A stretch of DNA of 64,000 nt from Isoetes taiwanensis. Its lineage: Eukaryota > Streptophyta > Lycopodiopsida > Isoetales > Isoetaceae. Location: positions 15,862,003 through 15,926,002 of the forward strand of contig JAJEKV010000030.1 in NCBI GenBank assembly GCA_021234155.1, written 5' to 3'. The notes beneath the pieces were generated by a model. That model was not told the DNA's origin, did no database searches, and saw only the letters and a list, made by a program, of their open reading frames with translations. Positions 1 through 48,296 of the stretch are shown in pieces. The position numbers and the translations under genes are program-made. Numbering within the stretch: the first letter of the stretch is position 1; each line of letters begins with the position of its first letter.

Positions 1-265
1 CACTCCACCACCACCACACCACACCACACCCCATCACCACACTCCACCATGTTCCACACCACACTCCACCACCACCACCACCACCAAACCCCACCACCAC
101 ATCCCACCACCACCACACACACCACCACCACCACCACCACCACCTTCACCCCCGCACAATGTCCCACCATCGCTTTGCTACCACCACGTGTTGTGTGGTG
201 TGTAATCGTGGCAAAAGATGTTGTGTGGTGTGTGGTATGTGGTGGTGTGTAGAGACTACCTTGTG
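1..265. repeat. CCACCA/CACACC minisatellite, 5' side of gene A
   Basis: About 160 bases of CCACCA, CACTCCACC and CACAC variants are followed by a TGTGTGGTG-rich stretch to about 265. The same arrangement, reverse-complemented, lies at 46675-47170 in the second copy. There it falls between coding exons, so it is probably intronic in gene A. Open frames here are low-complexity His/Thr/Pro strings and are not genes. Confidence 0.9.
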
Positions 266-351
266 TTGTGTGGTGTGTGATTGTGGTTTTTCATCAGTAC
301 GTGGCTTACTATGTTAGGAGGCGTACATATACGTAGTGTTTTGTTTTGCAG

Positions 352-2272
352 ACTATGGCAGACTTGTGAAGGAATGGTTGGCTGCAACATCAGCTAGGTT
401 TGATAGATGCAAGCAACGATTGCAAGCAAACGAGGATAAGAAAAATGATATCAAAAGAAAGATTGAGTTGATGGAGCATAAAGCATCAGAAATTAGAGCT
501 GATTTGTGATGGCAATCAATCATGACAACAAACCAAAGCAAAGCAGAGGGTGTTCGGGTTGTGTTTAACAAAGGATGAAGAGCTAAATGGTACAGTGTTG
601 TCTGGGTGAATCAATTAAATAAGGAACTAGCAGAAACTGAAATTGAGCTAAAGGCATGTGAAGACTTACTGCTGGAGCTGCAACCTCGAATGCAAAGATT
701 TGAGATTTTTTCTGAGCGTAGTGGTCATGACACTCCTTTAGATCCTGCACTTCCAATGCTTCCTGAGGCAGAAGAAGAGGGTGATGAAGGTTGTCCATTT
801 TGTGGACGTTGTCTGAAATGGGAGGGTAAAATATTGCCAGTTGTGATAGCAGAATGCAGTCACCAGTATCACATTCCATGTCTATCACACCATTTGAGGT
901 AAATATTATCATCTCTAACCCTCGTCTAACGACTCTATTGATTTTGAATTTGTTTTGCAGACACTCTAGAACCTGCTGCAGCCCCAGTTGTGCCCACATT
1001 ATGACTGAGACATGGCTTTTGGCTCTTGGTGTTCGAGTGGTATCACAAGGACCAATAGACACAAGTAAGTGCCTTAACTAATGTTTACTGATGTTGTCAC
1101 AGGTCTACTGACTTAGTGTTTGTAGAATTGCAGAAATTTGAGACCAAGGATATCCAACAGTTATCCACGCCTCGATCAGTTATGAGACTGCAAGATACCT
1201 CCCGGTTGTACCTAGAATTCACCCCATTTGATACTCCTAAATCAATCCCAGCTGCTGACGGCGTGGAGACTCCAAAACGAAATTTGGATAGTGAACTGAA
1301 TGCAGTCGTATCAAGTAAGTACCGATGCCACATACATGATTTATTTTTTTGTATTTTTCTGTGGTCTTCCTCATTTCAATTATGTTGCAGAGATAAATGC
1401 CACTACAACTGGAAGCCATCACGAAGAGATTCCTGGTGCATCTGTTTTAGGGGGAAAAATTAATTCCGTTGAGATTCATTCTGCACGGGATCCTTCACCA
1501 GAAAAAAGTTTTGGTGCTGAACATGAGCCAAATGCGGATGCAGGTGATGAAGTTGACAAAGAAACCCCAGATCCTGGACAAGATGCAGACTGCTCAACGA
1601 GTCCAATACAACCTCAACCAAGAAAAACTAAGAGGTTAACTGAAATTCTCCTTGTTCTGGATTTTAATGGGGTTTTAGGCAAGTTTTATGACTTGAAAGA
1701 GAGGATCCCTGCATCGGCCGAGCCAGAAGTGACCCTCCAGAAATTGAACCATCAAAAGGCAGTAGTTTCCAGGCCTGGATTACAGGAGTTCTTAGAATGG
1801 TGTTTTTCAAAATTTGAGATTGCATTGTGGTCCAGCATGCCCTAAGAGTAATGTTGACTTGTTGATGAGAAAGTTGCTGCAGGAATATAAGGGCAGATTT
1901 CTTTTTATTTGGAATCAGGATGACTGCACCAACACAAAATTAAAAGTGGTTAATAAGCCAATTTTCCTTAAGGATCTGTCCAAAGTGTACCAGAAATTTT
2001 GGAGATACCAGGTGACAAACACATTGTTGATAGATGACAGCAGATATAAGGGTTCTGCCAACCAGCTGAACACAATGATATGTCCAAATAGTTTTGCTCC
2101 CGACAAGTTGGATTCCAATTTCCTTTTGGAGCAACTCAAACCATGGCTGGAGGGACTTCTGGCTGCAGAAAGTGTGCCAGCTTATGTGAAGGAACATCAA
2201 ATGTGGAATATGTGGGATTCTGAAGAGTCGCGCAACTGCATGAAAATGCTCGACAAGTATTTTCATAAATGA
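352..2272 (+). pseudogene. Gene A 5' part: coiled coil, RING-like finger and FCP1/HAD-type domain (broken)
   Basis: Exons with good GT-AG edges run 352-898, 961-1064, 1134-1314 and 1391-2272. The first exon encodes a charged helical segment (DRCKQRLQANEDKKNDIKRK), then an acidic stretch, then a zinc-finger half with CPFC and CSHQYHIPC. The second supplies CCSPSC, together giving an atypical RING-H2 pattern. The last exon starts acidic and ends in an FCP1/NLI-interacting-factor-like HAD domain with LVLDFNGVL, RPGLQEFLEWCFSKFEIALW and LLIDDSRY. The canonical DxDxT is DFNGV here, so the second Asp is Asn. In-frame TGA codons occur near 508 and 575, and a one-base frameshift occurs near 1843 just after WSSMP, so this copy is probably dead. 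Upstream exons lie outside the window; the second copy shows them. Confidence 0.75.
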
Positions 2273-2390
2273 ATCTTGTAAAACTCTTTGAAAGTCAATA
2301 TAAGTAAAAATATTTCTATGATATGTGTTGTACTTTTTCAATTTAAAATATTTGAATGGATTGTGAGCAAATGTTCTCGTGTGTGTTTAG

Positions 2391-3870
2391 AACTAGAGAT
2401 GATAGAGCTTCGGCAGTCCCTGTCTATCTAAAGCCAAATACACATTTGGAAGTGGTGCTGAGTGGAACTGAAACTGTCGTGATTAGCTCCACCGACATCA
2501 AAATTTTGGAAGCTGATACGCAGTGGTTCAATGATCAATTGATCCTCCTCTTCTCAAGGTGATACTTTCATCTGATTTATGATCATCAGGATTGTGCCAT
2601 CATATGCATATGTTTGCAGATACATGGAATACTACTTGATGCTCCAAGGAATGAGCCATCGCTTTCATTTCTTTGACCCTCTTTTTCACTCGACATTGTC
2701 CAAGGATACAAATAGTTACAAAACAATAAGGAAACATGTGAATCTGGAAAGTGCCAGTACATGTTTTTACCTGCTTGTGATGGACATCACTGGACCTGTT
2801 TTCTGATTGTAAGCCACGCGTGTCTCGCACAGAGATATAAACCAGGGATATATCACTTTGATAGCTCGGGCTTGCATGGCAGAAGCAGACATATTGAGAG
2901 GTTAGTGCTTGCTCATTGCATTTTGTTGTTGTGGCACAATGACAACAAACTTTGAATGCAGGTTCCTGGAATTGCTTGGACACAATAATTTCAGCTTTAC
3001 AACCTCAGATGTTGTGAAAATTTCCAGAACGCCTCTTCAAACCGATGGTCATTCATGTGGCCCTGCCGTATGTTCGTTTATGCACAAATTTGTGAGGGGA
3101 TACTTGAAAGGAGTGAATATATTGTTGCCTATCTAGTAAGTCAACTCAAATGCAGCAGACAAACCAAACTCTGTTATTGACAAAGTGTGCATTAGGGATT
3201 TTTTGAGATCATAAAAGGGCCTTCTAAGAACTGCTGACTAAGCTATATGAACTACCAATCAAAAAACAGAACTGGTAATCCAGTCAGCAAAACAGTTATA
3301 ACTAACTCACTGGATCACATTTTCTAGCATAAGTGTTGATAGAAAAGTCCAAATGAGCTCTTGTTTGGTACAATAGATAGATCTCATTGAGATCTTTCCA
3401 ATCTTAGGTGGTTTGCATATCTTTTAGCCCCGTAGGATAGTAAAAAATGGTAAAAACCATATTTTTTGGAGTTTTGACAATCATAAGTGGTTAAAATATG
3501 CGCAAAGCACCTAAGGTTGGAAAGATCTCAATGAGATCTATCTATTGCACTAAACGAGAGCTCATTTGGACTTTTCTATCAACAGTTATGCTAGAAAATG
3601 TGATACAGTAAGTTAGTTAAAACAACTTTGCTGACTGGACCCGTCAGGCTCTGATTTCTGATTGGTAGTTCATTTATCTTCATTTGGCTTAGTTGGCATG
3701 TTTTGAATGCCCTTTTTTAAACTCAAAAAAACCCTAATGGTTAACTGCAGGTTGTGGACATTTCAGACCAGGATCTAGTTGATGTTAGAGTGTTCATGCT
3801 TGAAGTTTTAAGATTAGAAGCAATAAAAGCTGGAACTGAGAGGAACATATATGTATTGGGAAGTATGTAG
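2391..3870 (+). pseudogene. Gene A 3' part: Ulp1/C48-type cysteine protease domain (broken)
   Basis: Exons are approximately 2391-2558, 2620-2900, 2962-3135 and 3751-3870. Protease hallmarks occur in the order His, Asp, Gln, Cys: ACDGHHWTCFLIV, then YHFDSSG, then LQTDGHSCGPAVCSF. This is the catalytic layout of SUMO/ubiquitin-like proteases of peptidase family C48, whose relatives are often carried by plant and animal DNA transposons. A frameshift near 2745 separates the segment before DGHHW from the upstream reading frame. Whether this is a separate gene or the continuation of the FCP1 protein is unclear: the FCP1 frame stops at 2272, and a splice acceptor precedes 2391. A foldback insertion sits in the last intron. 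Confidence 0.75.
3191..3738. mobile_element. Foldback MITE-like insertion in the protease intron
   Basis: The sequence begins ATTAGGGATTTTTTGAG and ends with its near complement CTCAAAAAAACCCTAAT. The arms stay complementary for well over 200 bases; for example, the stretch around 3310-3410 pairs with 3500-3605. The arms contain AGATCTCATTGAGATCT palindromes. No coding capacity is seen. It is a non-autonomous foldback element lying wholly inside the intron 3136-3750. A clear target-site duplication was not found. Confidence 0.75.
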
Positions 3871-4195
3871 GTGCATGAATCACCTCGTACTTTAAATCAC
3901 TGTATATCTTTCTTATGTACATAATTGTTATTGTAACCTCGATTCATTTGAATGAAAATTCATATTCAATTCATCTCACAAACAAAGGAATCAAGTGTTC
4001 AAAAGAATTCAAATCTTCAAAAGAAATCAAGACAAACTCATTTTCACAGCTGAAGCACAAAACTTCACATGAGTTCTGAAAACTACAGAATGGTTTTACA
4101 TTTCATCATCATCAGAAAGAACTTCGGGTAAATTCTGTAAAATGTTCTCCTCATCTAAAGGATCCAGCCTATATACAGTCCTGTTTTGACGTTTA

Positions 4196-5932
4196 GTTGG
4201 TGGCATGTGAAGTCTGATTGCACAGATCTATGTTGTGAATACTATGTCTAAGGCGTCTTTACTGCAAAGATCATAGCTGCCAGTTGATCTTGCGCCCTTC
4301 TTGTAATACATACCTTCTATGACACTATCACCGGCGAGGTACCATGTTCCATTGAGTTGGAAGTCTTTCTCCACTATCCATTTGGTTTTGTGCACATCAG
4401 AATCCAAAATTCAGAACCCTCATCATTCCCTTTCGGAGCAACGACAGCAAAATTATCACCAACTCTAAGTGCCTCTGCTAACATCGTGGGGTTGGAGGAG
4501 AACAAGGACCTGCTAGATTTACGGTCCTCAATGTCAGCATGCACATTGGAGGATGGTACAATAACTTGAAGTTTCCAATCATCAACATAGTGCTTGTTCA
4601 CACAACTGTCCCACATGCCATCCAAGCAGTAGCTGCAGAAGCATGAAAGTTCCCTCGTGTGCAAGCGCAATGGAGATTCGAGGATTGAATGCATGTACAC
4701 AATGGATCTGCCTAGTGTCCAAAATCCTTTACGCACCCATGCTTTCTTTCTATCTATATCCTCCACCTTGACTTCCCAAAAGAACCTTTTTATATTCTTC
4801 CTCTTCTTGGTTTCGGATGTGTTCATCCACTTCGGATGTTCCACAAGTAAACATCTCTTCGCAACTTCTACCACTTCATGAGCATTACCCAATTTTTCTT
4901 TCTTTGTATTTTAATTGCGCTTGTCTTAACCATCTCTTCAACTCAAAGACTTTGCCATCGTGTTCACCTTTCCCGTGGTTAGAACCAAAAAAATTCCACA
5001 CCATATAGACATCAGTGTCGTTTGTGTACCTAGCCACAAAGTAAAATGGTCTAGAAGCCTTGAATTGAAATGCTGCACCATCTGAAAACACATAATGTCT
5101 CTTTGGCACCCTTCCTTTCTGCTCCAGATATTTGTGGTGCTTCATGAAGCAGTGTTGCACGAACAAAGTATCGTGTTCCCTATCATCTGATACATAGTAA
5201 TGTGTTTCCTTGATAATCTCATCTGCCACTGAGTCGTACTGATATGTTATTTGAACCAAAATGGTAATCTGGTTATTGATCCAACACATCGACTGCACCT
5301 CCTCTTGTTCCTTGAATGTATAGTGCTCTGCAAAATCCACTACCGAGAGACATGCATCTGCTGGGAGATTCTCCAGAAGCTCCTTAAATTGTTTTGCCTG
5401 CCATTGGTACCTGAAATTATGCAGTGGAAAGATTTTTAGACACTCTTTCAGTTTATCCAGAAGCTCCTTGGGTTCTGTCTCATTGTACTGATGAGTCAGT
5501 CTCCTACCAAATGTACTCCCATTTCACTTTCCTACTGCCACTTCCTTCCATGGGACAGGTCTGAAACTTCTTGATTCCACACAGCTCACAATTTTCAAGG
5601 ATGCACGCCTTCTTGTGAAACTCATCTAATTCACTCTTTGGACACAATATAGATCTCCACAAGCTTCCTGTACTTGCAATTTTATGCTGATGTGCCCTGC
5701 ATTGACCAAGTTCATGTGATCTACAAACATCGCAGGTGCAAGTGCAATTCTTCGGATGTTTGGTTCTCATCCCATTGAGTCCATCCACTAGCATTTGCAT
5801 CCTCACGTGCTGAATGCAACAGTAACTATTGAAGTCCTTCAATTTCACAACAAACCATGGTTTTAGCTTCTCAAAAGCTCGAAGACGAATCTTAATTTCT
5901 GGATGTTGGTCCAGAAACCTCTTGAACAATAG
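4196..5932 (-). pseudogene. Gene B: RNase H-like transposase candidate with Cys-rich N-terminus (frameshifted)
   Basis: Reading leftwards, an exon starts after a TGCAG acceptor at about 5932. It gives a Cys/His-rich region (CTCTCDVCRSHELGQC, CELCG), then the conserved core: SVVDFAEHYTFKEQEEVQS, YVFSDGAAFQFK and FFGSNHGKGEHDG. The C-terminal part has LHTRELSCFCSYCLDG and a terminal domain ending near 4196. I recall the DFAE / SDGA / HGKG...DG series from a family of uncharacterised transposase-like proteins spread across eukaryotes. The aspartates of the first two motifs could be catalytic; that is inference. Frame changes near 5505, 4893 and 4385 break the gene. No first exon could be placed 5' of the minisatellite. 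Confidence 0.65.
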
Positions 5933-6054
5933 CATCTGCATGAAATGAACACTAAACTGTTAGGATGTGTATACCACACCAAACCATGCACCATACCATC
6001 CCCACACTCATCATATTCACCAGAACGAGCACCTTAGTGCTGTGTACATTACCA

Positions 6055-6615
6055 CACACCACACTACACCCCACCACACTATTCACCACACACCATACAC
6101 CATACACCAAATGGTGGAGTGTGGAGTGGTGGTGGAGTGTGGTGGTGGGGGGTGGTGGAGTGGTGTGTGGTGGTGGTGGTGGATGGTGGTGGTGGAGTGT
6201 GGTGGAGTGGTGTGTGGTGTGGTGGTGGGGCGTGGTGGTGGGGGGTGGTGATGGTGGTGTGTGTAGTGGTGTGTGGTGGTATGATGTGGTGTGGTGGAGT
6301 GTGGTGGTGGGGTGTGGTGGTGTGGTGTGGTGTTGTGGATTGTGGTGTGATGTGGTGTGGTGGAGTGTGGTGGTGGTGGTGGAGGGGTGTGGTGTGGTAC
6401 ATGGTTGAGTGTGGTGGTGGTGAAGTATGGTGGTGGTGGAGTGTGGTGGTGGTGGTGGAGTGTGGTGGAGGGGTGTGGCGTGTGATATGGTGGAGTGTGG
6501 TGGAGGGGTGTGGTGTGGGATACGGTAATATGGTGGTAATGTGGTGGTCGCAAAGATGTGGTGGTAGTCTATGGTGGTGGGATAGATGATGGGGTGTGGT
6601 GGGGTGAGGGGGGAG
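6055..6615. repeat. TGGTGG/GTGTGG minisatellite, 5' side of gene B
   Basis: About 500 bases of GTGGTGG, GTGGAGTGTGG and GGGGTGTGG variants lie on the plus strand. Read on the minus strand this is the same CCACCA composition as 1-170, hence the mirror relation. The block is flanked on the left by CACACCACAC runs. The repeat is imperfect with mixed 3-, 6- and 9-base periods. Long frames through it are low-complexity artefacts. Confidence 0.9.
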
Positions 6616-6960
6616 AATAAATAAAATTGAATCCACACATATCATACATTAACATGCACATACCCACATGACACCATGGACATAACGCACCCCACACCAC
6701 ACCATCACAACACCACACATCACATCACATCACTTTTATCCTATTTCGTCTGACATAAAAAATCTGCCAAGCCTGCTCTCATAAACACTTCTGAAATTCG
6801 TACACTCTGATAATAATTACATTCCTCTTCTAATCATTAGAAAAGGATCTGGGTCCTAAATCCTGTTCCTGCGTCTGATTTTTGGCGTTTCATTCTCAAT
6901 TCGAACAAGTTCATTCTGGCAACATGGTAGGAGGGATGTTCAGAGATCACTACGGCTATT
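6616..6960. other. Non-coding flank
   Basis: This holds remnants of CACACC repeat to about 6735, then ordinary A/T-rich sequence. It may contain the unplaced 5' exon of gene B or the right element boundary. Neither could be identified. Confidence 0.4.
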
Positions 6961-7979
6961 GTAGGAAGGAAGGAAGGAAGGTATTTTTATCGTCCACGGA
7001 GACCAATCGGTCTATGGGACCCAATACAAAAACGCAGCAAGCGGATTACTGCCCGGATTAAAAAACCCCCGCCCCGAAGGGTTTTCGAGGGAAAAACCGT
7101 GGCAGCAATCAGCCTGCTGACAAACTGTCCTAACATATAAAATGCCAGAAACACCCAAATATATACAGTCATGCACCGCACCCGTAGTGCCCAATCAGCG
7201 GGCAGCCAGGCGGGGGCAAAGGTGACCTCGCAGGTCCAGCACCTCCTGAATGTACGACCCCAGGGCACGTACTGACGGTGTGTTCATCAGCAAATGTAAG
7301 GGCAAGTCCGGCCGTACTAAGGGAGCGTATTTGGCCCGGATCTGACTGAACGCTGGGCAACTCTGGAAAGTGTGAGACTCATCCTCAATGGCACCCGTTT
7401 GACAGCACTGACAGAGCCTGTCCTGGCGGGGCTCCCCAATCCACCTGCCCGTCTCGATGCGAAGATGGTGGGCACCTGTGCGAATGGAGGCAATGAGTCT
7501 GCGCTTTTTCAGGGGCAGCTGGGAACGCAGGTAGAGCTGTGGGCCCCGGGCTAACACGGGGTTGATGTGCTCCTTGTAATGGGCCGTTTTGACCTGCTCT
7601 AGAGCGCCGGGGTCCCAGAGCTTGCCAAGGAAGCAAGCGTCTAGGTACTCCCGCAGGCTGTCACGATCGGCCGCTGTGTCCACCTGCACGCATCTGTGCT
7701 CCTGCACGTTCCATCTGGCGAACCACTGATCTCTTTTAGCCCTCCAACAGGCCCTGAGCCGCTGCGGACCCATTGCCACAGTGTAAGCCAGGTGCGGGAG
7801 CCGAGCATCACCCATAGTAACCGCTTTCTGAAAATAGACGATGTGTCTATCAAGGGCTGCCCGCTGAAGCGGCAAGAATCCAGTTTCCTGCAGCAGAATC
7901 TGATAGGGGACTGAGGGTTTCACCCCAAGTGCCCGTGCCAAAAATGCCTTCTGCACCTGCTCCAAGTCATTCCAGGTCG
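6961..7979 (-). mobile_element. 5'-truncated LINE (family A, copy 1), ORF2 C-terminus
   Basis: On the minus strand one frame (7965-7195) encodes the C-terminal third of a LINE ORF2. It includes ALGVKPSVPYQILLQETGF, RIETGRW and a terminal zinc-knuckle-like CQCCQTGAIEDESHTFQSCP. The reverse-transcriptase core is missing. The 3' untranslated end carries the family hairpin (AGACC-GATT-GGTCT on the minus strand) and stops in a (GGAA)n tract at 6961-6980. The 5' end is cut at about 7979, where similarity to the copy at 20340 stops. Other copies lie at 19140, 26682, 33485 and 49531. Confidence 0.9.
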
Positions 7980-8340
7980 GTGAGCGAGGAGGGCATTCGG
8001 CACATGTTAAATAGGGCTCGTGACCAATCTCTGAAGGTGGATATGCCTAAATCCACCTTCTTTGCAGATTTCGAATCCAACCTAAAGGCATACAACAGAC
8101 TGGATGTTGGGCCTTCAATGGCTATGCTTGGAGTCAGATTGACAGGAAGTGAGCTCTTAGACAAGGTCCATGAGCTTATGTTACATGCTGCTGCAAGGGC
8201 AGCTGGTTTATTTGTTCTCTGTCACTTGTCCGCTCTGACCCTGCAACAACGGGAATTACTGGCAGGGTTGCGTTCTTACCACCAAGGGATGCAAGCACTG
8301 GCAAACCTCATCCTGTTAAATTCTGGGATGACTGCATAAA
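7980..8340 (+). pseudogene. Unrecognised coding fragment
   Basis: An open frame continues from the LINE junction to a stop at 8337-8339, about 119 codons. It has a helical, leucine-rich composition (ELMLHAAARAAGLFVLCHLS, LTLQQRELLAGLRSYHQG). The start is lost in the LINE boundary, so this is the 3' part of a gene or older element cut by the insertion. I do not recognise the family. A short acidic Glu-rich stretch follows near 8370-8405 in another frame. Confidence 0.4.
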
Positions 8341-8517
8341 GCTTAGATGCTTTAGTGCATTTCGGGAACCAGCGAAGAAGAAGACCCAGAAGAAGAAGAA
8401 GATTTTTTTGAATTTCATAATTGGCTCTAGAGTAAGTCGCATCGCATGCTTTTCATTTTTTGCTTTCTTTCGAATATTAGAGCTTTCTAACTTTCTGAAT
8501 TTTTCTTACAGATGAGG

Positions 8518-9520: not shown

Positions 9521-9865
9521 ATTTGCACTAGATTCTCTTTTTTTCTTTTTTTTCTTTTCTTTTTTTGAAGGCAAGGTGAAGTTTACTATTCATAGATCAA
9601 AAGTACATCATATAGTATACCATGGGTGACATACTGTAATATAGATAGACAATAAGTTCATTTACATGCCTATAAAATGAGCATGAATATATATCAGGGT
9701 CCCTGAAACTCTTACATTATCAAAATGCATCAAAGTGGAACTAGTAGTTCGAGATTATATGCTTACTGGGCATCAACCAGGTCTTGCATAGTAAGATCTG
9801 TCACTCTTCTTCTGCCAAAAATGTTCAGTAGCAGATCGAGTTGTCAGCTCGATAGTTAGCAAAAT

Positions 9866-10139: not shown

Positions 10140-13100
10140 CACAACATCAGAAAATGTTAGGTTCAAAATAAAGAAATCATGTAGCCCTTGGAATTTGCCA
10201 ATGGCATTCCAGTCTTTATCATAACCTTTCCCTTTTGTTGCTTTGTGTGCTATTGCAGAGTCAATTAAAGAACTTAGAAAGACCTGTTTTAACCAAATCA
10301 GATTTGGAGCTTTGTTTTCAATAGCAACCCTGTTTCTGTGCTTCCATATTGCCCAGCAGCACAAGGATCTCATTGTATTAAGAAGCCTGCTGTCAGAGTT
10401 TAGAAATTCTAACATACAAGAGTCCCCAGTAGCCCCTTTATTGACTTGTGCTGTCCAGCTCCAAAATTCTTGAATTTTGGGACATAAGAAAACATGATTA
10501 GATGTTTCAGCTTCTTCACATCCTAAAGGGCATGTCTCTGAACAAGAGGCATCATATTTTGCTCTCCTATAATTTGTAGAGAGGTTTTGATGTAAAACCA
10601 GCCAAATAAAGGTCTTTATTTTGTTTGCTGTGTAATTTTTCCAGCCCTGAGCACATATAGTAGCTAACTTCTTTTCATCACAGTTCCAAAACTATGTTGC
10701 TTTGGAAGGCTTATGCCTCACTAAATTTTTGTAAATATCCTTCACTGAATAGGTCTCCTTTCCTTTTAGATGCCATTGATTGGAGCTATCACACAATTCT
10801 TCATATTCCTGTACCTTATCCATAATAAGATTGTATATTTTCTTATCCAACAGTGAACCTTTGGTAACCATTGCAATTTCTTCCCATTTCCTCCAAGCTT
10901 TTTCCCCACATCTCAAATCTTCAATTTTCCTAATTTCTGCATTATGCCATTGCATGTACTTTTGTGGATGTTTGAGAGCCAAACATTCATTATCACTGTT
11001 CACGACCTCTGGAATCCAAAAAAAATGGATGTCTTTACTTTTAGCATCTAGAATTGGAGGTCTATAGCATAGTGCTGTAGAATTCCAAGCTTCAAACATT
11101 CTTTTAAGCACAATAAAAGTGTTTGGACATGGATTAAACTGAAAAAAGGCTGAGTCTGGGAGTTCATGTTTCAAACTGTGGCTGCCTACTGGGAATGACT
11201 CTTGTAGCCAAAATCTGATCAGTTTCATTGCAGGGGATGGAGAGGAATTATAAATGGCTCTCCATATCATCTTAGCAGCAAGAGCCTGGGCCTGAGTAAA
11301 TAGATCCTTACAGCCAAGTCCTCCTTCTTTCCTTGGTTTGATGAGGTCTCCCCAAGCAACTTTATGTACCCCTTGCCAAATAAAACGCCTTATAGCTGCC
11401 TCAATTTTACTGTATGATGCTTTATCACCAACTATTACTGATGAGAAATACACATGTATGCTGCTTATGATTGCATTAGCAATCTGCACTCTACCAGCCA
11501 AAGAAAGAGATGAAGAATACATACCTAATTTCTTTTTTATTCTGGTAATAATAGGATCCCAGAGACCTCGAAGTGAAGAATTCAGAGCCAAGGGAATTCC
11601 AAGAATTGATGTACCTTCATTCTTGTTTAGTATCTTGATGCCCTGTAATGTAGTCTCCATTGTGTCCAAAATAATTGCACATTTACTTCTATTTAACATA
11701 ACTCCAGAAATGTGACCAAACCTTTCCATCATAGTCAGGAAATTTGATAGGCTATTATCTTCCTGTTTTAGAAAGACAAAGATATCATCAGCATACTGCA
11801 TGAGGGAGAAAGTACCTTCATTACCTGGCAGCTCCAAACAAGTTATGTCCCCTTTTTCTTGCATATGGATTACCAATTTGGTAACCATTTCTGCCACAAT
11901 TAGAAACAGATATGGAGCTAGGGGGCATCCTTGCCTCACACCTCTTCTGCATGGGAATTGTTCTGTAGGAGTGCCATTAATTATGAGTGCAGATGAAGCC
12001 ATGATGTTAAATCCATACACCTTTTGATAAATCCTCTCTGACAACCCCAAGTGAGCCATTGCCTTCTCAAGGAACTGCCAGCTGATAGTATCATATGCCC
12101 TTTTAAAATCCAACTTGAGAAGCATGCATTCCTGACCAGACAATTTATTCCAATGAAGACCTTCAGTTGCACCAATGTAATTATCCAATATATTCCTCTG
12201 AGGTAAGAAGGCTGACTGAACAGGATTTATTACCTTCATTAGACTTAATTTTAGTCTGTTGGCCAAGATTTTTGCCAGCAGTTTATATGTGGTATTAGTG
12301 AGAGAAATTGGTCTCCAATCTCCAAGATTCACTGGATTTTCCACTTTTGGTATGAGGGTAATATGGCCTGCATTAATGGCTGGATGCAAATATTTGGCTT
12401 TCCACGCCCCTTGAATGAATAAAATGAAGTCCTCTTTTATTAGCTCCCAGAATTCCATATAAAACTCAGGCTGAAGTCCATCTGGACCTGGACTTTTCCT
12501 AGTGCCATGTTTTGCAGAGTTTCCTTAATCTCTTTTTCCTCAGGTACTATGAGCATGTCATCTTTCTCAATTTGTGTTCCTTTGGGAATTTCCTCAAAGA
12601 ATTTATCAATTTCCTGCTCATCAACCTTATAACTGCTGAATAGGTTTTTGTATTCCTTGAGGAAGAAATTCTGAATCTGTATTTGACTATCAAAGACATT
12701 ACCCTCATTCCCTTTGACTTGAATAATACCATTGTTTAGAATTCTGTTTTTTGCTGTCCTAAAGAAAAAAGCTGACCCTGCATCATCCATTTCATTGATA
12801 TATTTACACCTGCATTTTATTGCTAGACTCTTGGCTTCAGCCTCCTCAATTCTTTTAACTTTAGATGTCAACTCACACTCCTCCTGCCAAGTTATATTGT
12901 CTTTATCCTGGAAAAGCTTTTTCCTGATCTCTCTCATTTCTTCATAAACTTCTTGCTTTTCCTTCCTTTTCTTAGTATTCCACTCTCTTCCCCAATCTTT
13001 AATCCAACCCTTGACCTTTTTAATCTTCTGAACAAAGATGTTCATAGATTCAGTTAAGGGAATTTTAGGGAGATGTCTGTAAAATTCAGAGAATGCTTCA

Positions 13101-19139: not shown

Positions 19140-21326
19140 GAGCGATGCGCAACAGCTTTATGATCCCCCCGGGAACACGGGACAGATGTGCCCCCGCGAA
19201 CATGGCCCAACCGGGTGATCTGTAAGAAGATGTCGAAGAGGGGCTGCAGCGCCTGGCTAATGGGAAGGCAGCAGATTTGGACGGCCTGCAAGCGGAGTTG
19301 CTTAAGTGGGCAGGACAGCCCATGGTGCTCGTCCCTGGCTTTGCACCGTTCCTTGAGTGGTCTTTGCAAAGGGTTTTCCCGGTCATGGACACAAGCGTGG
19401 GTTGTTCTGATCTACAAGGCAGGGGACCCACACTGTCCAGCCAATTACCGAACCATCATGGTCAGCTCAGTGTTTGCCAAGCTGTGCGCGGGCATTCTCG
19501 AATAGCAGGTAACCAGATGGGCAGAGGCAGCGGAAGTCAGGGAACTTACCCAGGCAGGCTTCTGACCCCGACATTCGACCATTGATCACATCTTCACACT
19601 CAGGGCCCTGATCGAGGACAGCAGGAACCGTCGGGAGGACCTGTACTGCTGTGTTGTGGACTTTGCAAAAGCTTTCGACACAGTACCCCGGGAAAAGTTG
19701 TGGGCGAGATTGCACCATCTGGGGCTCCCTATTTATCTACAGAACGCAGTGTACAGACTGTACGAGAGCTGCACAGGCCGCATGCAATCTGAAGGACAGT
19801 CATTTTCCAGTAGCATTGGAGTTAGGCAAGGTTCTCCTCTCTCACCCACACTCTTTGGACTTTACATTGACCAGTTGGAGGTCTGGCTTGCTACCAATGG
19901 GGGGGACGGTATACAGCTCTTGCACCAGGTCATCTGGCAGCTCATCTATGCGGATGATGTGGACCTCTTGGCCCATACACCAGAGGGCATGCAGGCATAC
20001 CTAGATGCCCTAGACACATTCTGCCAGGCGACAGACATGCGTGTCAACCTGGCCAAGACTAAGGTGGTCCTCATATCCTCCTCACGTCATCCAGCACCTC
20101 CGGCGCTCACTTATCAGGGGCAGATGGTAGAGGTTACACCCAGCTACAAGTACCTGGGGGTGGAATTTCCGTCCTCAATGTATTCGCCTTCGGGTGACCG
20201 CAGATTGGAAGGCGCTGTACGTAATGCAAAACAATAGTCACGGGGCCGAGCTGTATGACTGAGGCCACCAGTCACATTTGTTCCGGGCATTGGTGGAGCC
20301 AGTTCTTCTGTATGGGGTCAAGGTGTGGGGCCCAGTGGTGTCTTTGGCGACTTGGAACAACTTAGAACAGGTCCAGAAGGCATTTTTGACGCGGGCACTT
20401 GGGGTCAAGCCCTCAGTTCCATCTCAGATCTTGTTGCAGGAGACAGGATTCATGCCCCTGCAGCATGCGTCCCTCGATAGACACATTGTTTATTTCCAGA
20501 AGGTGGCCAGCATGGGCGACACTCGGCTCCCGCACTTGGCTTACGTTGTGGCGATGAGCCCGCAACGACTCAGGGCTTGTTGGAAGGACAAGAGAGCCCA
20601 GTGGCTAGCGCGCTGGAACGTAGACGCACGTAGGTGCGTCCAGGTGCACACAGATGCCGGCCGAGATAGGCTGAGGGGGTACTTGGACTCTTGTTTCCTG
20701 GGGAAGCTCTGGGACCACCATGCTCTGGAACATGTAAAGGTGGCACACTACAAACAGCACATAAACCCCACCCTGGTTCGAGGCCCACAGCTCTACCTGC
20801 GTTCTCAGTTGCCCATGAAGAAGCGCAGGATCATCGCGTCAATTCGAACAGGGGCCCACCATCTTCGGCTTGAGACGGGTCGGTGGGTTGGAGAGCCGCG
20901 CCAGGACGGCTTTGTCAGTGTTGCTCGCTGGGGGTTGTTGAGGATGAAAGACATGCCTTCCAGAGCTGTCCAGCCTATAGTCAGATTCGGGCTCGCTACA
21001 CTCTCTTGGTGCGACCTGGTCTGCCCCTGCACGAGCTACTCAGTACGCCGTCAGTTCGATTCCTTGGCTCCTACCTCCAGGAGGTGGGTTTTGTTTCTGC
21101 GGACTCACCTCTGCCCCCGGGCACCTACCTGAGGTGCCAGGAATTCATGTCGATATGTATATTTGTACAGCTGCCAGCAGGCTTGTTGCTGCGACAGTTT
21201 TTCCCTCCTAAGAGGGGGTTTTTTAATCCGGGTAGTAACGGGCTTGCTGCACCCGTGTAATTTGGGTCCCATAGGCCGATTGGCCTCCGCGGATGATAAA
21301 AGAACCTTCCTTCCTTCCTTCCTTCC
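19140..21326 (+). mobile_element. LINE family A, copy 2: reverse transcriptase to 3' end
   Basis: The element reads through an RT N-terminus (YKAGDPHCPANYRTIMVSS), VVDFAKAFDTVPREKLWARL, GVRQGSPLSPTLFGLYIDQL, the catalytic IYADDVDLL box, and the C-terminal region ALGVKPSVPSQILLQETGF. The frame changes at least at 19500, 19570, 20237 and 20900, so it is dead. The zinc-knuckle end is in another frame near 20910-20965. The 3' end has AGGCC-GATT-GGCCT and a (CCTT)n tail at 21304-21326. The 5' limit is uncertain; sequence from about 18850 may also belong to it. Confidence 0.9.
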
Positions 21327-33484: not shown

Positions 33485-34886
33485 GAAGGAAGGAAGGAAG
33501 GAAGGTACTTTTATCGTCCACGGAGACCAATCGGTCTATGGGACCCAATACAAAACGCAAGAAGCGGATTCATTGCCGGGTTAAAAACCCCGCCCGAAGG
33601 GTTTTCGAGGAAAAAACGTGGCAAACAATCAGCCCTGTGACAAAAGCATCCTAACATATAAAATGCGAAACACCCAAATATATCTGAGTCATGCACCACA
33701 CGTGTAGTGCCTAATTAGCGGCGGCGGTGAGGGGGCAAAGGTGACCTCGCGCAGGTCCGATTACCTCGAAGATATGCGACCCCGGGCACGTCTTGGCGGT
33801 GTGTTCATCGATAAATGCAAAGGGCAAGTCCGGCCCGTACTAAGGGGAGCGTGCCCGGCCCGGATCGGTGAGCAGCGGCCCGGGCAACTCTGGAAAGTGT
33901 GAGACTCATCCTCAATGGCACCCGTTTGGACCGGCAGGCGATGAGTCTGTCCCGGCGGGGCTCCCCAATCCACCGCCCGTCTCGATCGCGAAGATGGTGG
34001 GCACTCGGGCGAATGGAGGCAATGAGTCTGCGCTTGGGGTATTTGGGAGGAACGAGGTAGAGCCGTGGGCCCCGGGCTAACACTGGGGTTGATGTGCTCC
34101 TTGTAATGGGCCATTTTGACTGTTCTAGGCGCAGGGGTCCCCGAGCTTGCCAAAGGAAACAAGCGTCTAGGTACTCCAGCAGGCTATCACGACGGCGGCG
34201 TGCTCACCAGACGCATCGTGCTCATCGCCGCGTTCCATCCGGCGAACCAGATCTCTCTTACCCCTCCAACAGGGCCCTAAGCTGGCTAGCGGACAAATGG
34301 CCCCCGGTGTAAGCGAGTGCGGGGCCGAGCATCACCCATAGTAACCACTTTACGAAAATAGGCGATGTGTCTATCAAGGGCTGCCGGCGGCAAGAATCAG
34401 TTTCTGCAGCGAGAATCGATGGGATTTGAAGGTTTCACCCAAGTGCGGTGCCAAAAATGCCTTCGCACTGCTCCAAGTCATTCCAGTCGCCAAAGAGGCA
34501 GTAGGGCCCCAAACCGACCCGTCTGAAGGGCCGGGCTCGACCCGGTGCGAGAAGCGGATGTGGACCGATGGCCCCAATCATAGAGCTCTGCACGGTTTGT
34601 TGTTACGCATGGCATAAAAGCGCTTTCGGCCTGGCTTTGTCACCCATAGCGGATAGACGCCTCGGCCAGAGTGAGGAGGGGAACTCCACCCCTAGGTACT
34701 TGTAGGTGGGTGTGGCGTCCACAGTCAATCCCCGATATGTGAGTGCGCGGGAGGCATGGGGTGGCGTGAAGAGGATATGAGAACCACCCTGGTCTTGGCC
34801 AGATTGACGCGCATGTCTGTAGCCTGACAAAATGTGTCTAGGGCATCCAGGTGAGACTGCATAGCTTCTGGGGTGTGGGCCAGCAG
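33485..34886 (-). mobile_element. LINE family A, copy 4, inserted in array unit 1
   Basis: The 3' end at 33485-33560 has a (GGAA)n tail and the AGACC/GGTCT hairpin. The body matches copy 1 over the ORF2 C-terminus and extends further 5' into the YADD-proximal region (about 34650-34880). It is 5'-truncated. It differs from copy 1 by many small indels concentrated at CAG/CTG sites, so no long frame survives. The uninterrupted array reads GTAAGTAAGGAGGTCATTGA here; in the occupied site about seven bases (AGGTCAT) are missing and no TSD is visible. Confidence 0.9.
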
Positions 34887-45300: not shown

Positions 45301-45811
45301 CAAGAATGAGTTGGAGCACGTCAATTGAACCTTAAAAATTTTACTTATTAAAAAAGAACTTCTATGGATGAGAACGGAAACACGATTGTTAACCAAACCA
45401 AGTAAGAACTCGTGCAACTATTTTTAGGACGAACCGAATGGGTTTGTCTTGCACTGCACAGAGCTGGAAATAACTTGGAACTGCCAAGAATAAGAGATTA
45501 GATGCCTAGCTATGATCCGACATATCATTTTGCCGATTCGGCCTCTTTATAAGGTATTTTTCGCTATTTAATCTTAAAATTATTTTGTCATTCTTCCTGA
45601 CAACATTGCTATTCTTATCTTTACATATTCTAGTGCAGATGAATACACATGCAGAGACAATGAATGAATCTAAGAATGATTTGGTGCATGTTGTGGAAGC
45701 AGAGGTTGGTCTAAACTTTGCCGATTAAGAAACTCAAAGGAAGGTGCCCAATTGCCAAATTGCGCTAGACTGCAAGTAAAGGCAGACTCCCAACTGCCAG
45801 ATTTGGTTCAC

Positions 45812-47856
45812 AAACACTAAGTCAGTAGACCTGTGACAGCATCAGTAAATATTAGTTAAGGCACTTACTTGTGTCTATTGGTTCTTGTGGTACCACTCGA
45901 ACACCAAAAGCCAAAAGCCATGTCTCAGTCATAATGTGGGCACAACTGGGGCTACAGCAGGTTCTAGAGTGTCTGCAAAACAAATTCAAAATCAATAGAG
46001 TCTTTAGACGAGGGTTAGAGATGATAATATTTACCTCAAATGGTGTGATAGACATGGAATGTGATATTGGTGACCGCATTCTCGCTATCTGGCGGCAACA
46101 TTTTACCCTCCCATTTCGACATAACGTCCACAAAATGGACAACCTTCATCACCCTCTTCTTACGCCTCGGGAAGCATTGGAAGTGCGGGATCTAAAGGAG
46201 TGTCATGACCACTACGCTCGAGAAAAATCTCAAATCTTTGCATTCGAGGTTGCGGCTCCAGTGATAAGTCTTCACATGCCTTTAGCTCAATTTTAGGTTT
46301 TTTGCGAGTTCCTTATTTAATTGATTCAGCCCCAGTGCAACACTGTATACCATTTAGCTCTTCATCCTTTAGTTAAACACAACCCGAACACCCTCTGCTT
46401 TGCTTTCGGTTCTTTGTCATGATTGATTGCCATCTGTGCAAATCAGCTCTAATTTCTAATGCTTTATGCTCCATCAACTCAATCTTTCTTTTGATATCAT
46501 TTTTCCTATCCTCTTTTGCTTGCAATCGTTGCTTACATCTATCAAACCTAGCTGATGTTGCAGCCAACCATTCCTTCACAAGTATGCCATAGTCTGCAAA
46601 ACAAAACACTACGTATATATCAGCCTCCTAACATAGTAAGCCATGTACTGATGAAAAACCACAATCACACACCACACAACACAAGGTAGTCTCTACACAC
46701 CACCACATACCACACACCACACAACATACGCTGCACAGTACACACCACACAACACGCTGTGGTGGTAGCAAGCAGTGGTGGGACATTGTGCAGGGTGGTG
46801 AAGTGTGGTGGTGGTGGCGGTGGTGTGTGTGGTGGTGGTGGGGTGTGGTGGTGGTGGTGGTGGTGGAGTGTGGTGGTGGTGGACTGTGGTGTGGGACATG
46901 GTGGAGTGTGGTGATGGGGTGTGGTGGTGGGGTGTGGTGTGGTGGTGGTGGAGTGTGGGGTGTGGTGTGGTGGTGGTGGCGTGTGGTGGTGGTGGTAGAT
47001 TGTGGTGTGGGACATGGTGGAGTCGGTGGTGTGGGTGTGGTGGTGGTGGAGTGTGGTGGTGGTGGTGGAGTGTGGTCGAGGGGTGTGGTGTGGGACATGG
47101 TGGAGTGTGGCGGTGGGAGATGGTAGAGTGTAGTGGTGGGAGATGGTGGGGTGTGGTGTGGGACATGGTGGATGCCAACAACTCACCACTCACCAGACCA
47201 CACATACCTCATCTATCATTCTGGCATCCATTGCACGAAATGCCCCACAGATGGCATCATAGAGACACAACATGACAATACTGCCAACATGATGCAAAAT
47301 GGTAGTAGACATACCTGATTCTTGAAGTGGATTTGATGTTACCTTTTCTGTGTTGATTGAAACAATCTAGGTCAAGCTTGAGATTTTTTTCTGTTGTAAC
47401 ACAACTAATAATTGAACATACCTGCAATGGCATGTTTTGGTCTCAGAACATTGCTCTGCTTTTCTGTTTTGATTGTGAGAGTCCTTGTTTTCATCGGGAG
47501 TTTTATAATAATCCGAGAAGCTCTTCCAATTAACAGCCTCCCCCTTTATATGCAGATAATAAGCCACTGCCCAGGTTCCAGGAGCCATTCCACCCCATGT
47601 ATGTGGCTTCCCTGTAATTCTTTTGTACATTTGCATGAACTCTTTGTATTGTTCATTGCTCAGATTCTTCAATCTGTACAAGAAAACATATGCCTTAATT
47701 TTTCAGTTTGAACAAAACATTTAGGGGAAAATACCTGTAGCCAGATTTATTTGGAACTCTGTCACCCCAAAGCTTCTTTAGATCTTCGTGGGGCACAATC
47801 TCTTGTTTGAGGAGAAATTTCATCGTGTAACCAGTGGCGTTCAATTCTGACTCCAT
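45812..47856 (-). pseudogene. Composite element copy 2: gene A, 5' half only, inverted
   Basis: Exons from the start: 47856-47735 (ATG, ending VPNKSGY), 47673-47422 (LKNLSNEQYKEFMQMYKRIT, HTWGGMAPGTWAV), 47347-47315, 47280-47208 (CLYDAICGAFRAMDARMIDE). Then comes the minisatellite, the coiled-coil exon (to 46593) and the RING-like exons (about 46290-45869). The first four junctions keep frame; the link across the minisatellite does not, so an exon may be missing. The copy stops at about 45812, inside the intron before the third exon of copy 1. The FCP1, protease and gene B parts are absent. Where copy 1 has TGA in the coiled coil, this copy has CACAGA (His-Arg), so the break in copy 1 is a private lesion. 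Confidence 0.7.
46675..47170. repeat. TGGTGG minisatellite of composite element copy 2
   Basis: GTGGTGG/GGAGTGTGGTGG repeats occupy 46790-47165, with CACACCACAC runs at 46675-46755. It corresponds in inverted orientation to 1-265. Here it clearly lies between the exon ending at 47208 and the coiled-coil exon beginning at 46593, that is, within an intron. Confidence 0.9.
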
Positions 47857-47966
47857 TAGGGTTCAATCGGCAAGAAGCGGCAAAAAAACAAAAGAAGAGG
47901 TGATTATTTCTTAATTCAAAAAGGTGGACAATGACGTGGCATAAAATTCAAAATAACCGATGCTCA

Positions 47967-48296
47967 TTAATTCGCACTCCCGCAATCTCCGCTGCGGTAT
48001 GCACCACCCGATTCTACCACAAAGGTGGTGCCAAAATGTGGCGTCAAAATGCGCGTTTTTGATACACCACAGCGTGCTTTTACCCTTTTGGAAAAATCTT
48101 GAAGGTCTTCTCTAGGCTCTTCTACCGGAATTAGCCAAGCACCTATACCATAACTCGCGAAGAGCTCTGGCAAAGGTAGGGAAATCAATTCCCGGCGTTT
48201 GGAAGGGGCAGGGGCAGGGGAAGCAGAGCGGGAGCGGCAGCGCTTCGGCATTCTGTTGGGTGGGAGAATTGGACGATGCTTCTCCCTCACGACCAT
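47967..48296 (-). CDS. Hypothetical frame upstream of gene A copy 2
   Basis: 109 codons in the same direction as gene A, ending 108 bases before its ATG. A basic Ser/Arg/Pro start (MPKRCRSRSASPAPAPSKRR) is followed by LPLPELFASYGIGAWLIPVE. It might be an additional 5' exon, an upstream gene of the element or a host gene fragment. No family is recognised. Confidence 0.35.
   Translation of the reverse strand: MVVREKHRPILPPNRMPKRCRSRSASPAPAPSKRRELISLPLPELFASYGIGAWLIPVEEPREDLQDFSKRVKARCGVSKTRILTPHFGTTFVVESGGAYRSGDCGSAN

Follow-up and report, generated by a model that had tools for sequence, protein, structure and literature searches.

Sola transposons, the described elements closest to those reported here, create 4-bp target duplications, have inverted ends of 11 to 1124 bp, are expected to encode a DDD-type transposase, and are mostly 2 to 9 kb long with some exceeding 15 kb; they occur in moss and are seemingly uncommon among flowering plants (PMC10741241). 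Sola is also described in PMC4455052 and listed in a fern (PMC6890710), and amoebal Sola2 elements combine ends of 12 to 21 bp with AT-rich 4-bp duplications and have Fanzor1 as a companion (PMC3627910). Passages of PMC5199201, PMC10294476 and PMC6890710 hold no further defining Sola feature. Ulp1 protease domains occur in several DNA transposons, including Mutator-like elements of Arabidopsis, maize, rice and melon, and Ginger1 elements, which have TGTNR ends and CCGG-like targets, carry Ulp1 or OTU in the C-terminal part of their transposase (PMC2836005). Here we analyse a 64,000-nucleotide stretch of the Isoetes taiwanensis genome (assembly GCA_021234155.1, contig JAJEKV010000030.1, here C1035, positions 15,862,003 to 15,926,002; hereafter the window), which begins inside a broken copy of a transposon with two genes. 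The genome also gave 66 matches to the light-harvesting family PF00504, and one of its LHCII proteins (L024) is most similar to LHCII chains of land-plant type, the first full-length match being 8htu_U of a moss complex, as befits a green plant. Gene A encodes a putative transposase; gene B combines a coiled coil, a RING-like finger, an FCP1/NIF-type domain and a Ulp1/C48 cysteine protease region. A preliminary description of the window had proposed a composite element holding two convergent multi-exon genes between mirrored minisatellites. The genes and their arrangement were confirmed and the idea of an element with both genes was upheld, but its proposed limits were wrong.

We think it likely that these are autonomous-type, Sola-like transposons in which gene A is the transposase and gene B an old, selected partner whose parts resemble borrowings from host ubiquitin, SUMO and phosphatase machinery. 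The family is a large group of cut-and-paste-type DNA transposons with hundreds of copies in this plant genome of 1.66 Gb, where the gene A core and three gene B exons each matched at least 150 places. Copies are bounded by 22-bp inverted ends (GGGTAAAAGCACGCTGTGGTGT), perfect in the K1028 pair and differing by one mismatch in the K1048 and K1030 pairs. Allowing at most one mismatch, the end matched the genome at 611 places (308 forward, 303 reverse), and a reversed-pattern control matched at 0 and 0. Among the matches listed, a part of the 611, we paired opposite-facing ends no more than 23 kb apart, all of them exact 22-bp matches. Nineteen of the resulting 20 pairs are flanked by an exact target duplication, which in all 19 measures 4 bp and no more. 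Two of the 19 duplications have nearly identical flanks, leaving 18 independent sites, and the one pair lacking a 4-bp match (C208) may be mispaired.

Tracing five copies from end to end gave a full length of 9–11 kb. Three belong to the main family (9,049, 9,503 and 9,537 bp, with target duplications AGCT, TCTT and CTTA), and two to a second clade (clade 2; 9,771 and 11,151 bp, with duplications TTTT and CTCT); the latter two have the ends GGGTCAAAGCA.../...TGCTTTAACCC and contain parts of both A and B. GGG-type inverted ends with exact 4-bp duplications thus enclose both genes in two clades, the outcome that the preliminary description had named as support for its proposal. When 11 main-family copies were fetched and aligned, a sharp left junction was common to eight, altered in L014 and absent from L011 and L012; the right end was located from extended main-family copies. 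In clade 3 we found no end pair, and one end-like sequence in L016.

Genes A and B are linked in convergent orientation far above chance. All linkage counts were drawn from the best 150 matches per query: among those for gene A, 76 of 150 had a gene B exon match on the opposite strand within 8 kb, and all 127 opposite-strand A/B exon pairs were convergent. Same-strand neighbours of these gene A matches numbered one of 150 for FCP1, one of 150 for C48 and none for RING. Moving the A positions by 100 kb reduced the count to 0/150 on the opposite strand and 1/150 on either strand. By identity of gene A, B was linked in 59 of 89 matches at 85% or more, 11 of 19 at 77–85%, 6 of 27 at 66–77% (a class in which most copies had no B within 16 kb among the matches listed) and 0 of 15 below 66%. 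This last figure rests on main-family B queries, and direct reading of divergent loci revealed B. In ten such A loci (L015–L018 and L025–L030), 51–66% identical to L004, direct reading showed gene B homology, oriented alike, in nine, although at L015 it was seen only once the locus was extended (L077). L016, with no gene B in the 9.6 kb read, is the sole exception.

Clade 2 repeats this arrangement, with an opposite-strand FCP1 match within 10 kb of 23 of its 56 A matches, all convergent, and none on the same strand or in the shifted control. The A set comprised 56 of the best 150 matches, at 68% identity or more with one L018-group match at 68% excluded, and the FCP1 set 121 of the best 150, excluding 27 main-family matches and two that were a second piece of a locus already included. 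Twenty-seven of the last 31 FCP1 matches of this set had no A within 16 kb among the matches listed. Two of those 27 loci were fetched; L076 contains part of A (64% over 113 amino acids), and the A match of L075 is divergent and broken (33% over 445 amino acids, 1e-50).

Both genes show ratios of nonsynonymous to synonymous substitution rates (dN/dS) below 1 between subfamilies. Within clade 2, for pairs in which the synonymous rate could be measured, these were 0.07–0.22 for gene A (8 pairs; a ninth was saturated), 0.13–0.25 for the FCP1 domain (3 pairs, partial sequences) and 0.25–0.26 for the coiled coil and RING (2 pairs). Across eight loci, distances in A and in FCP1 were correlated (Mantel r 0.85, a value attained in 15 of 40,320 permutations; some FCP1 sequences were partial). 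Judged from these comparisons, gene B bears signs of upkeep by purifying selection.

In the window, gene A occupies 4096–5959 on the minus strand, as delimited by open reading frames (ORFs) and alignments, with the C end read from the sequence. Its frame is broken near 5504–5523 and 4885–4910 and has a stop near 4228. The product has a Cys-rich N part, a core with VVDFAEH, SDGA and HGKGEHDG, and a Cys-rich C part; the Cys-rich parts are presumably DNA-binding. The DFAE, SDGA and HGKG motifs that the preliminary description reported for the minus-strand product lie at 4888–5523, as confirmed here. A model of the core built on a 15-sequence alignment has strands and helices in the order b1b2b3-a-b4-a-b5-a. 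In L025 core numbering, strand 1 holds the conserved acid D60, D145 follows strand 4, and the next helix carries D186 and E191; these acids correspond to the VVD motif, the SDG motif and the E/D of the HGKGEHDGKAAELKRW helix. Structure searches with the model picked up Argonaute PIWI domains, with Z reaching 8.7, and retroviral integrases, for which it reached 8.2, and Foldseek rows include Rous sarcoma virus integrase (9.5e-4) and RNase HI (1.1e-3). This topology and the acid positions fit a DDD/E RNase H-like core, on a weak model (mean predicted local distance difference test score, pLDDT, 51.5; Z 7–9). We take gene A to be a putative RNase H-like transposase because the ends, the target duplications, the conserved acids and the model combine to suggest it. 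Relatives numbered 0 among 80 pattern matches in viral contigs and 0 among 414 in prokaryotes.

Gene B runs along the plus strand of the window, where tblastn located each of its parts. The coiled coil and the first half of the RING-like finger lie at 353–902, supported also by ORFs and with the frame interrupted near 509–579; the second half (CC..C) is at 961–1064, with AG/GT borders read from the sequence. The RING-like pattern CPFC..CSHQYHIPC..CC spans 579–902 and 961–1064. A linker at 1125–1635, in exons at about 1125–1313 and from 1391 (a border read from the sequence), leads to an FCP1/NIF-type HAD domain at 1636–2256 with motif I DFNGVL (D-x-N), recognised by Pfam NIF and with its frame broken near 1840. 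A splice from 2256 to 2391, as GT/AG borders and frame suggest, would join it to the Ulp1/C48 cysteine protease region at 2391–3135, which is found by Pfam C48 and phmmer as well, consists of three exons and contains HHW, FDSSG and Q..SCGP. The last exon (VVDISDQDLVDV...) is at 3751–3855. The four parts named in the preliminary description were all recovered, with Pfam matches for NIF and C48 and with RING below the cut-off.

Pfam NIF matched one window exon at 2.7e-5. Its matches in L004 (5.7e-17), L017 (8.5e-9), L029 (5.6e-10) and L076 (1.1e-11) are above the cut-off and cover three clades, and the one PDB match was UBLCP1 (0.0018). In FCP1/NIF phosphatases the catalytic motif is DxD. Motif I was without DxD in all ten loci read, being DFN in the window, L004, L017 and L018, ELD in L025 and L029, ELE in L027, and FYYN or FYSN in L015, L075 and L076. 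Gene B thus resembles the FCP1/SCP/NIF phosphatases and UBLCP1 in its NIF and PDB matches and differs from them in having D-x-N, E-x-D, E-x-E or Y-x-N in place of DxD. As no FCP1 domain read retains DxD, phosphatase activity is unlikely, and the domain is probably a pseudophosphatase that may serve in binding. In the protease region, joined exons from the window copy and L004 matched Pfam C48 at 4.8e-11 and SENP5 at 9.3e-7 by phmmer. Peptidase C48 catalysis relies on H, D, Q and C, and all four can be read in the window translation. The main family and L018 have a C48 region, and L015, L075 and L076 of clade 3 match it weakly. One coiled coil (L029:7028-7624, minus strand) weakly matches the Pfam model of the BRE1 E3 ubiquitin ligase (2.4e-5, below the cut-off), which hints at where the coiled coil and RING came from, though coiled coils match easily.

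Several results weigh against reading these elements as a selected pair of Sola-like transposase and partner. Gene A had no Pfam match above the cut-off, no NCBIfam match and, as a profile, no convincing PDB relative (best 0.033). The gene A core model is weak (pLDDT 51.5, predicted template modelling score 0.44; 33.8 pLDDT from a five-sequence alignment). Its structure matches reach Z 7–9, with a designed protein as the top row (9.1), and Z below 8 may reflect a common arrangement alone; the best Foldseek row, TnsB at 2e-4, has a root-mean-square deviation of 32.6, and unrelated ribosomal proteins and kinases are also among the matches. For gene B, the Cys/His pattern of the RING-like finger is present, but Pfam RING-type models reached only 1e-4, below the cut-off. 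C48 was not found in L017 or L025–L030 by a two-sequence profile and ORF reading, which distant forms could escape, and is hence not essential to the whole family; Ulp1/C48 as a part of the element stands for the main family, L018 and the clade-3 traces. In the close pair L017/L028, dN/dS was 0.73 for A and 0.57 for FCP1, and in L025/L029 it was 0.28 for A and 0.72 for RING, with few changes in most of these comparisons; copies of an element are expected to drift after insertion. Finally, 74 of the 150 best A matches had no B match within 8 kb, a figure to which decay, insertions, divergence and the restriction to the best 150 may each have added. A and B at unlinked loci, named in the preliminary description as a refuting outcome, is not what the matches listed showed, although these 74 matches and L016 had no B alongside.

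These results bear on what gene B is doing in the element. It could be a passenger, assembled from captured host RING-FCP1 and Ulp1 fragments of no use to the transposon. Ulp1 occurs in several DNA transposons (PMC2836005), C48 is patchy over the clades here, and close-pair dN/dS values of 0.57–0.73 would suit such a history. Against this, B is placed and oriented alike across clades in which identity between A proteins is 51–66%, A and FCP1 distances correlate, and between subfamilies dN/dS of FCP1 and of the coiled coil and RING is 0.13–0.26; we regard a passenger gene as improbable. That A and B are instead a pair of host genes on a segment duplicated time and again, and not a mobile element, gains something from the existence of duplications of element plus flank (45.8–48.1 kb in the window; C919:7894433/7925148). 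Exact 4-bp duplications in 19 of 20 end pairs, at 18 different flanks, together with 611 end matches, refute it for the family, and we give it practically no credence.

The assignment to Sola is a separate matter. The element shares 4-bp duplications, inverted ends (22 bp here), a fitting size and a plant host with Sola as described, and differs in its second gene of RING-like, FCP1-type and C48 parts. It is best filed as Sola-like, on the strength of these described features. An undescribed superfamily that likewise makes 4-bp duplications is favoured by the lack, for gene A, of a Pfam match above the cut-off, an NCBIfam match and a convincing sequence relative in PDB. The 4-bp duplications, inverted ends, putative DDD/E core, size and moss occurrence all fit Sola as outlined in PMC10741241, and we hold a new superfamily to be possible, if unlikely. 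Other known groups fit less well. Target duplications vary in sequence, with TTAA accounting for two of 19. piggyBac and Kolobok are TTAA-specific, and superfamilies of this kind can be set aside. Mutator-like elements resemble this family as plant DNA transposons with a C48 protease; we know of no RING-FCP1 part in them. The analogy to Mutator-like elements, drawn in the preliminary description, fails on target duplications, which are 7–12 bp for that group (PMC10741241) versus a longest exact match of 4 bp in 19 of 19 here. Ginger1 shares 4-bp duplications and a Ulp1 domain within the element, but here the ends start with GGGT, the target sequence is not constant and C48 is part of a gene distinct from that of the transposase; the termini and targets, set against TGTNR and CCGG-like (PMC2836005), exclude it.

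If these are Sola-like transposons with gene A as the transposase, gene A would bind the element ends, cut the element out and join it to its target with a 4-bp stagger, presumably supplying the catalysis. The most likely job of gene B, to judge from its parts, would be to modify or recruit host proteins of the ubiquitin/SUMO pathway. By such action the element might escape silencing, or its excision might be repaired, and the pseudo-FCP1 domain could dock onto phosphoproteins, for example the RNA polymerase II tail. A more ambitious version, which we find doubtful, is that gene B serves the transposon as a ubiquitin/SUMO switch of its own: a former phosphatase of the C-terminal domain type, whose catalytic motif was lost differently from clade to clade, would act as a reader that docks on RNA polymerase II in its phosphorylated form, or on chromatin factors, and the RING, with the SUMO protease where present, would rewrite host marks at the copies of the element. 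With gene A this would make a two-component lineage new to the literature searched. Among the best-ranked papers listed, our literature search found no transposon with a RING and FCP1 partner gene; FCP1 was little covered, and this is not proof of absence from print. DNA transposons, to our knowledge, often capture pieces of host genes, and long-kept partner genes are few. Gene B recurs over divergent clades under apparent purifying selection, yet its phosphatase-like domain is without the catalytic motif, making it a natural test case for transposon action on the host ubiquitin and SUMO systems. The defined ends and target duplications allow copies to be annotated in the genome.

The window copy itself is broken: both gene frames are interrupted and it has received two later insertions. 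Positions 1–8359 are its interior and right part, aligned to positions 1070–7560 of the K1028 element. The left end lies at C1035:15860705, with the junction AAAA|GGGTAAAAGCACGCTGTGG, so that window base 1 falls 1,298 bp inside the element. No right end for this copy was found anywhere in the window, where the element can be followed as far as 8359; intact copies extend about 2.4 kb past the right minisatellite. The mirrored minisatellites, taken in the preliminary description as the boundary, are both internal. Tandem Repeats Finder places a CAC-rich array at 5–144, between the element left end and gene B, and its GTG-rich mirror at 6121–6515, upstream of gene A. The left region of K1028 holds inverted-repeat matches to the right arrays, the best of them 82% over 239 bp. 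At a guess, these arrays may be binding arrays or promoters. Clade-2 elements also have arrays upstream of each gene (c33 element, 1579–1934 and 8214–8495; c96 element, 1576–1980 and 9609–9860), alike in position but with units unrelated in sequence to the CAC/GTG arrays.

One later insertion, at 3190–3737 ahead of the last exon of gene B, has inverted ends TTAGGGATTTTTTGAG / CTCAAAAAAACCCTAA, resembles a miniature inverted-repeat transposable element and is missing from 11 other aligned main-family copies. The other, at 6966–7978, appears as an alignment gap (6965/7979) relative to K1028 and has relatives elsewhere in the window at 33487–34486 (83%) and 20348–21323 (72%). Rfam had no match in the window. 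A partial copy at 45.8–47.9 kb had been offered as proof of a repeat family. The repeat family is real, but this copy, which spans 45811–48085 on the minus strand, duplicates the left part of the window copy in inverted orientation. It ends at an inverted repeat (48064–48085) and continues into the same flank, the 1,803 bp that span the junction being 98.3% identical and at least 1.2 kb of flank shared; having the same junction and flank, it is a duplicate and not a second insertion. The duplicated flank at 48.1–49.3 kb is partly repetitive in its own right. Two copies at C919:7894433 and C919:7925148 (L057–L060), about 30 kb apart with near-identical flanks and both with TACT, likewise represent a segmental duplication of element plus flank.

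Two features between genes B and A were seen in the divergent clades. In clade 3, an extra minus-strand ORF (MANFTSWMLQNDG...) is found at L076:6813-7709, at 5877–6563 in L075 and at 10153–10611 in L015+L077 (the latter two in oriented coordinates); it matches Pfam DUF1411 at 0.0028, below the cut-off, and is possibly a third gene or a nested element. In L017 (3699–3971), L028 (2181–2426) and L030 (3682–3921; all oriented coordinates), a stretch between the genes is, as read by eye, much more alike among copies than their FCP1 domains, and is probably a younger nested element.

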